Shown piece after piece: positions 14,595 to 16,483 of a stretch of DNA of 32,699 nt (position 1 is the stretch's first letter; each line of letters begins with the position of its first letter). Source of the DNA: Candidatus Eiseniibacteriota bacterium (lineage in GTDB: Bacteria; Eisenbacteria; RBG-16-71-46); the NCBI GenBank assembly GCA_020849095.1, contig JADLGX010000366.1:1-32699 (forward strand), in the 5' to 3' direction. A program made the position numbers and the translations under genes. Below the pieces are notes generated by a model. The model was not told the DNA's origin. It saw only the letters and a program-made list of their open reading frames with translations, and did not search any database.

Positions 14595-14646
14595 CGCCCG
14601 AAGAGTTGCACCTCCTGCCCGGACGCGAACCCCGGGCTGGACACCA

Positions 14647-14698
14647 CCGCGGGCCCGCGTCTACTGGGTGTCGACGCCGGGTCCGCGGCTTTTCTTTT
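14647..14698 (+). terminator. intrinsic terminator at the end of the ECF operon
   Basis: CCGCGGGCCCGCGTC-(loop)-GACGCCGGGTCCGCGG followed by a CTTTTCTTTT tract. Confidence 0.85.
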
Positions 14699-14780
14699 CG
14701 GCGCCGTGACCGCCGGCGCCTCGGGGCCGTGTTAGCATTCGCGCGCCGTGCACGCCGCCGTCCACTCCGGAGCCCTTCGC

Positions 14781-15260
14781 ATGCGTTCCACCCCGACGAA
14801 CCTCGTTCTCGCGCTCGCGCTGGCCCTCGCGGCCGTGGCCGCGTTTCCGGGCGCAGCGGGCCGGGCCTGCGCGCAGGGCGCGTCGCGGTTCACCTGAGTG
14901 CCGGACATGGTCCCGTCGGGACCAGTCGTGGATTCGGAGTTCGCGCTCTTCCACATGCAGCGCGCGCTGTGGGACCCCGTGGACCCCGACCGCCTGGGCT
15001 CTCTGGCGGACACGCTGCAGTACCGCGTGAACGGCGAGGTGTACCGCTTCGCCGACGAGCGCACGCTGCACCGCTTCGTGATGGCCCCGGCCCTGTACTG
15101 CGGGCTGGTGCGCGATCCGGTGAACGGCAGGCGGTTCCATCCCTCCACGCGCACGCCGGCCGCCTACTGGATCGGCGGCCCGTACTTCTTCTCGCACGAC
15201 TCCACCAAGGCCGCGTTCGTGGACGATCCGAAGAAGTACGAAGTGCTGCGCGCGTTTTGA
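14781..15260 (+). CDS. secreted YHS-like domain protein read through an in-frame TGA (14895-14897); candidate selenoprotein, otherwise disrupted gene
   Basis: ATG 14781 gives signal peptide MRSTPTNLVLALALALAAVAAFPGAAGRACAQGASRFT. TGA follows, then in the same frame VPDMVPSGPVVDSEFALFHMQRALWDPVDPDRLG...YRVNGEVYRFADERTLHRFVMAPALYCGLVRDPVNGRRF...PYFFSHDSTKAAFVDDPKKYEVL. Confidence 0.6.
14904..14927 (+). promoter_or_regulatory. bSECIS-like stem-loop just downstream of the TGA
   Basis: GAC-(A)-TGGTCCC-GTC-GGGACCA-GTC: 7-bp perfect upper stem, bulged A, 3 bp lower stem, 3-nt loop starting with G at 14915. 17 nt separate TGA and loop G. Confidence 0.5.
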
Positions 15261-15262
15261 TC

Positions 15263-16483
15263 ATGTCGCCCGGCCGCATCGCCCGCGCGGCGGCCGCCGC
15301 GGTGTTCACCCTGCTGCTGGCCGGGTGTGCCGGCGGGCAGGAGGCGCTGCCCGCGTTCTACCGCACCCGCCCCGTGTTCGAGCAGCCCTTCGCCCACCAG
15401 CGCGTGCCGCGCGGGCTCAAGACGCTGTCGGCCGCCGAGTGCGGCAGCTGCCACGTGCAGATCTACCGCGAGTGGCGCCAGTCGGTGCACGCGCAGGCGT
15501 GGGCCGACCCGCAGTTCCAGGGCGAACTGCACAAGCAGCCCGGCGTCAGCTGGCTGTGCATCAACTGCCACACGCCGCTCGTCAATCAGCTCGACTCGCT
15601 CGTCGTGAGGCTGCAGGACGGCGACGTCGAGCGCCCGGTGAAGGTGCGCAACGCGCGCTACGACGAGTCGCTGCGCGACGAGGCGATCACCTGCGCCAGC
15701 TGCCACGTGCGCGACGGCGCGGTCGAGGGGCCGTTCGGCGACACGCGCGCCCCGCACGCCGTGCGCAAGAGCGCGGCGTTTCGCAGCGCCGAGCTGTGCC
15801 TGCGCTGCCACCAGGCGGTGCAGACCTATCCGGGTAAGTCGTTCACGTGCACGTTCGACACCGGCAACGAGTGGAAGGCGGGCCCGTTCGCGGCGAACGG
15901 CGTGGTCTGCCAGGACTGCCACATGCCGCCGGTCGAGCGTGCGCTGGTCGAGGGCGGGCCGGTGCGCCGCGTGGGCATGCACGGCTGGATCGGCAGCCAC
16001 CTGCGCAAGGGCGGCGAAACGCTGCCGGCGCTGTGGGACTCGCTCGCCGCGCGCCGCCCGCCGGGCATCGAGCTGCGCGCGGACTCCGTGCGGGCCGCCT
16101 CGCCCGGCGCGGCGGTGGAGTGGACGGTGCGCGCGGTCAACGCCAACGCCGGGCACATGCTGCCCACCGGGGACCCCGAGCGCGCGGTGATCGTCACGCT
16201 GGCGGCGCTGTCGGCGGCGGGCGACACGCTCGCGCGCGAGGACGTGCGGCTGGGCCAGCGCTGGGAGTGGTGGCCGGCGCCGCGCAAGCTGGGCGACGAG
16301 CGGCTCGCGCCCGGCGCCGAGCGCGCGATCACGTTGCGCCTTCGCGCGCCCGCGGGCGCGTGGACGCTGGGGGCGCGTGCGGTCAACGAACGCATCAGCG
16401 ACGCGAACGCGGACTTTCACCGGCTTGCCGAAAGCTATCCGCGGCGCACCGAGGTGGCGCGCGTGGCGGTGCGCCCGCGCTGA
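15263..16483 (+). CDS. multiheme (five CxxCH) c-type cytochrome lipoprotein, cytochrome c554-like
   Basis: Lipobox LLLAGCAG. Heme motifs CGSCH, CINCH, CASCH, CLRCH, CQDCH. C-terminal GHMLPTGDPERAVIVTL segment. Confidence 0.9.
   Translation: MSPGRIARAAAAAVFTLLLAGCAGGQEALPAFYRTRPVFEQPFAHQRVPRGLKTLSAAECGSCHVQIYREWRQSVHAQAWADPQFQGELHKQPGVSWLCINCHTPLVNQLDSLVVRLQDGDVERPVKVRNARYDESLRDEAITCASCHVRDGAVEGPFGDTRAPHAVRKSAAFRSAELCLRCHQAVQTYPGKSFTCTFDTGNEWKAGPFAANGVVCQDCHMPPVERALVEGGPVRRVGMHGWIGSHLRKGGETLPALWDSLAARRPPGIELRADSVRAASPGAAVEWTVRAVNANAGHMLPTGDPERAVIVTLAALSAAGDTLAREDVRLGQRWEWWPAPRKLGDERLAPGAERAITLRLRAPAGAWTLGARAVNERISDANADFHRLAESYPRRTEVARVAVRPR

Follow-up and report, generated by a model that had tools for sequence, protein, structure and literature searches.

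An in-frame UGA followed by a bacterial SECIS-like hairpin in a putative secreted selenoprotein gene of Candidatus Eisenbacteria

The stretch of DNA analyzed here (the window) comprises the 32,699 nucleotides of contig JADLGX010000366.1 in the assembly GCA_020849095.1 of a Candidatus Eiseniibacteriota bacterium (the host genome; Candidatus is abbreviated Ca. below), and carries a protein-coding frame in which an internal TGA codon is closely followed by a stem-loop. It is very probable that this in-frame UGA is decoded as selenocysteine (Sec, U), directed by a bacterial selenocysteine insertion sequence (SECIS) hairpin at 14908..14924. The evidence comes from homologous genes of 15 species (the window family), from a longer, distantly related family in which the Sec position is occupied by either Sec or Cys (the sister family), and from other selenoprotein genes of the host genome. 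The features concerned are as follows.

14781..15260, plus strand: putative selenoprotein gene (ATG 14781, Sec at codon 39, stop TGA 15258-15260; 159 residues comprising a signal peptide at the N-terminus and two YHS-like halves), predicted from the reading of TGA as U, 15 homologous species of like architecture and a weak Pfam YHS match.
14781..14876, plus strand: putative signal-peptide segment, MRSTPTNLVLALALALAAVAAFPGAAGRACAQ, a hydrophobic N-terminal segment in frame 5' of the TGA, found also in the homologues with diverged sequence.
14895..14897, plus strand: in-frame UGA, probably read as selenocysteine (Sec39, motif R-F-T-Sec); TGA in 15/15 species, falling in the alignment on the position that is Sec or Cys in the sister family.
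14908..14924, plus strand: predicted SECIS core hairpin UGGUCCC-[GUC]-GGGACCA (stem of 7 bp, with the G of the loop at +18 relative to the UGA), from folding, covariation, a codon-preserving null and a geometry common to SelD and FdhA of the host genome.
14904..14927, plus strand: longer, 10-bp hairpin of the original prediction, which had been made from the window sequence; its three lowest pairs (GAC/GUC) lack conservation in the family.

The TGA at 14895-14897 is in frame both with the ATG at 14781, 38 codons upstream, and with the downstream frame ending at TGA 15258-15260. The read-through product, MRSTPTNLVLALALALAAVAAFPGAAGRACAQGASRFT-U-VPDMVPSGPVVDSEFALFHMQRALWDPV..., consists, in this order, of a hydrophobic signal-peptide-like segment, Sec39, and the two YHS-like halves. 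Homologues were collected by a one-genome-per-species scan, which returned three clear relatives, all from Ca. Eisenbacteria, and then by a profile search across 47 genomes of the phylum, which found the full family in 15 species, all within one family of Ca. Eisenbacteria. The Sec codon is TGA in all 15 and never Cys, TAA, or TAG, whereas the terminal stops of the homologous genes are a mixture of TGA and TAG (TGA in 8/14 vs 15/15 at the Sec codon; Fisher p = 0.006). Coding is conserved on both flanks of the TGA, with [S]RFT before it and PSGP-DSEFALFH-QRALWDPVDP after it. In one genome (G031), two contigs (L080 and L081, on C84 and C161) start just 5' of the Sec codon and continue into differing flanks, which suggests two near-identical copies of the gene.

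If the TGA were instead the true stop of a signal-peptide-like leader, a second, cytosolic protein would start at GTG 14898, and the hairpin would be an attenuator or pause element. A 120-residue ORF (open reading frame) with this GTG start does appear at 14898-15260 in the mechanically compiled ORF list, and the hairpin is stable enough to influence ribosomes. Among the homologues, however, there is no conserved in-frame start: the GTG at +1 is confined to the window and the relative nearest to it, and the first 39 codons of homologue L023 include no ATG, GTG, or TTG. Moreover, the coding conservation is unbroken across a stop that is always TGA, and the homologous position is Cys in four members of the sister family with open frames, all of which makes a genuine termination signal highly improbable. 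A nonsense mutation, a sequencing error, or a pseudogene could be argued from the short contigs of these uncultured genomes and from an extra TAG in one homologue (L028), but is refuted by the comparison, the TGA being common to the genomes of 15 species whose proteins are 43–86% identical across the alignment; we regard the probability of such an origin as negligible.

The hairpin behind the TGA was located exactly where the original prediction had placed it, with GAC at 14904-14906, A at 14907, TGGTCCC at 14908-14914, the loop GTC at 14915-14917, GGGACCA at 14918-14924, and GTC at 14925-14927, and a check of the sequence gave the same spacing of 17 nt between the TGA and the first loop base, G. 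The predicted ten-pair stem was retained only in part: its 7-bp core is conserved, whereas the basal GAC/GTC pairs are unpaired, at each of them, in 5 or 6 of the 11 species that carry the core. These pairs were therefore rejected as part of the element, which we take to be 7 bp long, not 10. The SECIS consensus on which the prediction was based agrees with the published bacterial model, which has a loop of 3–9 nt, a stem of 4–16 bp, a G as the first or second loop base (usually G[G/U]), a UGA-to-loop spacing of 16–37 nt, and a minimum free energy of at most -7.5 kcal/mol (PMC13188914). The window hairpin, folded alone, lies within every one of these constraints (7 bp, 3-nt loop, G first, 17 nt, -10.7 kcal/mol). 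Like bacterial SECIS elements of the Escherichia coli fdhF type, it is a stem-loop in the coding region just 3' of the Sec-UGA, with a loop that begins with G-U and is flanked by a C-G pair. A bulged U below the loop, a feature of the E. coli-like elements, is missing from it. No Rfam family matched within 14600-15300. As an RNA element, the predicted hairpin is thus an ordinary bacterial SECIS.

The folding energy of the 51-nt stretch is -25.1 kcal/mol against a mean of -16.7 for shuffled sequences (z = -3.0), with 1 of 200 shuffles folding as well. Because the encoded Pro-Ser-Gly-Pro motif by itself favors pairing, a stricter, codon-preserving null was chosen, in which the protein was kept fixed and synonymous codons were redrawn; the codon pool took in the tested codons, rendering the null conservative. 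For the window, this null gave p = 0.035 for the 7 pairs and p = 0.015 for the best hairpin, and for the other ten species with the core, p ranged from 0.003 to 0.08. On its own, the window sequence is therefore only suggestive evidence for the hairpin, and the main weight falls on the comparison across species. Conservation of the stem among TGA-containing homologues, the check set by the original prediction, was found in 11 of the 15 species together with two-sided changes. In these 11 species, the core hairpin extends from +11 to +27 with a loop of GUC or GUU, and 7/7 pairs are formed in nine and 6/7 in two. Both variable pairs have changed on both sides (CG/GC/UA at columns 14-30 and UA/UG/CG/GC at columns 17-27), and in each of them a second codon position is paired with a third position that is synonymous.

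The sister family, found in thirteen genomes, contains three YHS-like repeats and the motif FC[U/C]xxC. Alignment of the two families by hhalign (probability, 99.75%) puts F-T-U of the window family on F-C-U/C of the sister family. Nine sister-family members have the TGA (L033-L037, L039, L041, L042, and L046), and four have Cys in open frames (L038, L040, L045, and L047). A hairpin of the type GGGUCUU-[CGUGC]-AAGACCC, with 6–7 of 7 pairs and G at loop position 2, is present in 9/9 TGA members; one pair has changed on both sides in L046, and L041 shows changes that are one-sided or two-sided. The original prediction had also called for a search for equally strong hairpins in Cys-containing homologues. 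The window family contains no Cys member among its 15 species, and Cys occupies the homologous position only in the distant sister family, where three of the four Cys members score no hairpin and L038 retains a weaker remnant; SECIS remnants in Cys descendants are a known pattern (PMC1794560). Comparison of hairpin energies between Sec and Cys forms gave p = 0.005 in the sister family (9 vs 4), p = 0.003 in SelD (12 vs 3), and p = 9e-6 in the pooled families (41 vs 8), values that are optimistic because the sequences are related.

As for the Sec machinery, selA and a tRNA-Sec with the anticodon TCA, adjoining selD, were found in the host genome, and selA was matched in 26/26 of the better genomes of the phylum. 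The host selD (L094, G000:C576), located next to tRNA-Sec and lepA, itself has an in-frame TGA, as does the host fdhA (L095, G000:C342) at a U-H-A-P motif; a longer, Cys-type fdhA paralogue (L088) is also encoded. The in-frame TGA is followed in the host SelD by the hairpin GGGUC-[CGGGA]-GACCU (loop from +17), in the selD of most relatives by GGGUCC-[GGN]-GGACCU (loop from +18), and in the host FdhA by GUCGUC-[GGUCU]-GGCGAC (loop from +19). The window gene therefore shares with these two genes the in-frame TGA and a loop starting at +17 to +19, whereas the proteins are unrelated and the loops differ, being GGUCU in FdhA, GGN in SelD (CGGGA in the host), and GUC in the window.

Several observations weigh against Sec decoding directed by this hairpin. 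The encoded PSGP motif accounts for part of the stem (codon-null p of about 0.003–0.08 per core species), the codon-preserving null by itself yielding 4–5 of the 7 pairs on average, and four divergent TGA-containing species forming a subclade (L029-L032) are without the core stem. These are also the points in favor of regarding the hairpin as a functionless by-product of Pro-Ser-Gly-Pro coding and high G+C content, with the UGA suppressed or decoded without it. Such a by-product would, however, hardly account for codon-null p-values of about 0.003–0.08 in each of 11 species, for two-sided covariation that links nonsynonymous with synonymous positions, for the like geometry in SelD and FdhA, or for the loss of the hairpin in the Cys homologues of the sister family, and we consider this explanation very unlikely. 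The four divergent species have a possible alternative stem about 12 nt further on (+22 to +44; 8 pairs interrupted by one bulge, with the loop CGUGCC beginning at +30), which shows one two-sided change. It is broken in L029, and we therefore propose an alternative SECIS in this subclade only tentatively. The proteins of the same species (genomes G033, G036, G024, and G034) have an additional Cys at the fifth residue after Sec. Besides its Sec TGA, the homologue L028 (G035:C286) has an additional in-frame TAG (GGPY-TAG-FES), reflecting either recent decay or an assembly error. The 15 species all belong to one phylum and hence are not independent. Finally, selB was not found in the host draft genome, which is 93% complete in 629 contigs; since three of four congeners, and 37/47 genomes of the phylum, have a selB that scores above the cut-off, its absence is probably an assembly gap.

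In the favored mechanism of Sec insertion, SelB carrying Sec-tRNA(Sec) would bind the apical loop, with its G at +18, while the UGA at 14895-14897 is in the ribosomal A site, so that selenocysteine would be inserted there in place of termination. Once its signal peptide is removed, the secreted product would measure about 127 residues, and Sec39 would lie on a short tail at the N-terminus, before two YHS-like halves related to the treble clef. In the window family, Sec39 and Cys107 are the only such residues to remain (Cys107 being Ala in one species), and in the sister family, Sec adjoins cysteines expected to bind metal. On these grounds, our best guess is that the window protein is a secreted redox or metal-binding selenoprotein, in which Cys107 may be the partner of Sec39. 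The actual decoding, the binding of SelB, the export, and the redox or metal-binding role of Sec are all inferred. The AlphaFold model of the sister family is good (pLDDT, 88.8) and that of the window protein fair (82.2); in the latter, pLDDT stays below 50 over the first 17 residues of the mature protein, Sec among them. A Foldseek search against solved structures with both models gave no match below E = 0.05 (best, E = 0.07). The weak top matches of both were bacterial monooxygenase hydroxylases, and small ribosomal proteins followed lower down; both of these groups carry YHS/TRASH-like treble clefs. It is conceivable, though we would not count on it, that in both of these related selenoprotein families of Ca. 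Eisenbacteria, Sec took the place of a Cys that lay next to metal-binding cysteines in a YHS treble clef. In the window family, the first domain would then have been reduced to an N-terminal tail that bears Sec and tolerates Cys no longer, and the result would be a novel kind of secreted protein that depends on Sec to handle metals or redox reactions.

Among the 119 families of a 2026 inventory, NF041384, which has the motif GxU, is the sole entry for a YHS selenoprotein. The window protein resembles this YHS (seleno)protein in being a YHS-related putative selenoprotein and in a weak local match in its second YHS half, whereas the match (residues 128-154) is away from Sec, which stands in F-T-U near the N-terminus. 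Membership in NF041384 was rejected on score, as four scanned proteins of the window family reached 15–25.6 bits and the sister family 15–19, against a cut-off of 70. With Pfam YHS (PF04945), the window protein has in common two YHS-like stretches. It scores 25.3 bits, under the gathering cut-off of 30.3 that the sister-family proteins exceed, and is without the cysteines of the first repeat of the sister family. Neither family turned up in the table of the 119-family inventory, in NCBIfam, or among the new families listed by deep-Sep, and no paper naming both Eisenbacteria and selenoproteins was found, in a literature search that covered papers outside subscription. The window family is thus apparently new and uncatalogued, and the sister family also appears to be uncatalogued. 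Together they would add two apparent selenoprotein families to Ca. Eisenbacteria. The deep-Sep authors state that their own homology filter can discard genes without a Cys homologue (PMC12013277), and the window family, having no Cys homologue of its own, illustrates this blind spot of homology-filtered selenoprotein searches. Gene callers choosing the GTG or an ATG 3' of the UGA as the start would lose both the signal peptide and Sec and mispredict a cytosolic protein.

One neighboring gene was considered in relation to the putative selenoprotein.

15263..16483, plus strand: lipoprotein-like multihaem c-type cytochrome with MtrC/MtrF-like, C7, and C554 Pfam matches; its start lies 2 nt beyond the stop of the selenoprotein gene.

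Of the other genomes examined, only that of the congener G020 shows a downstream neighbor of this kind. A conserved operon as a clue to function was accordingly rejected, and because the adjacency is not conserved, the cytochrome is probably not part of the selenoprotein system.
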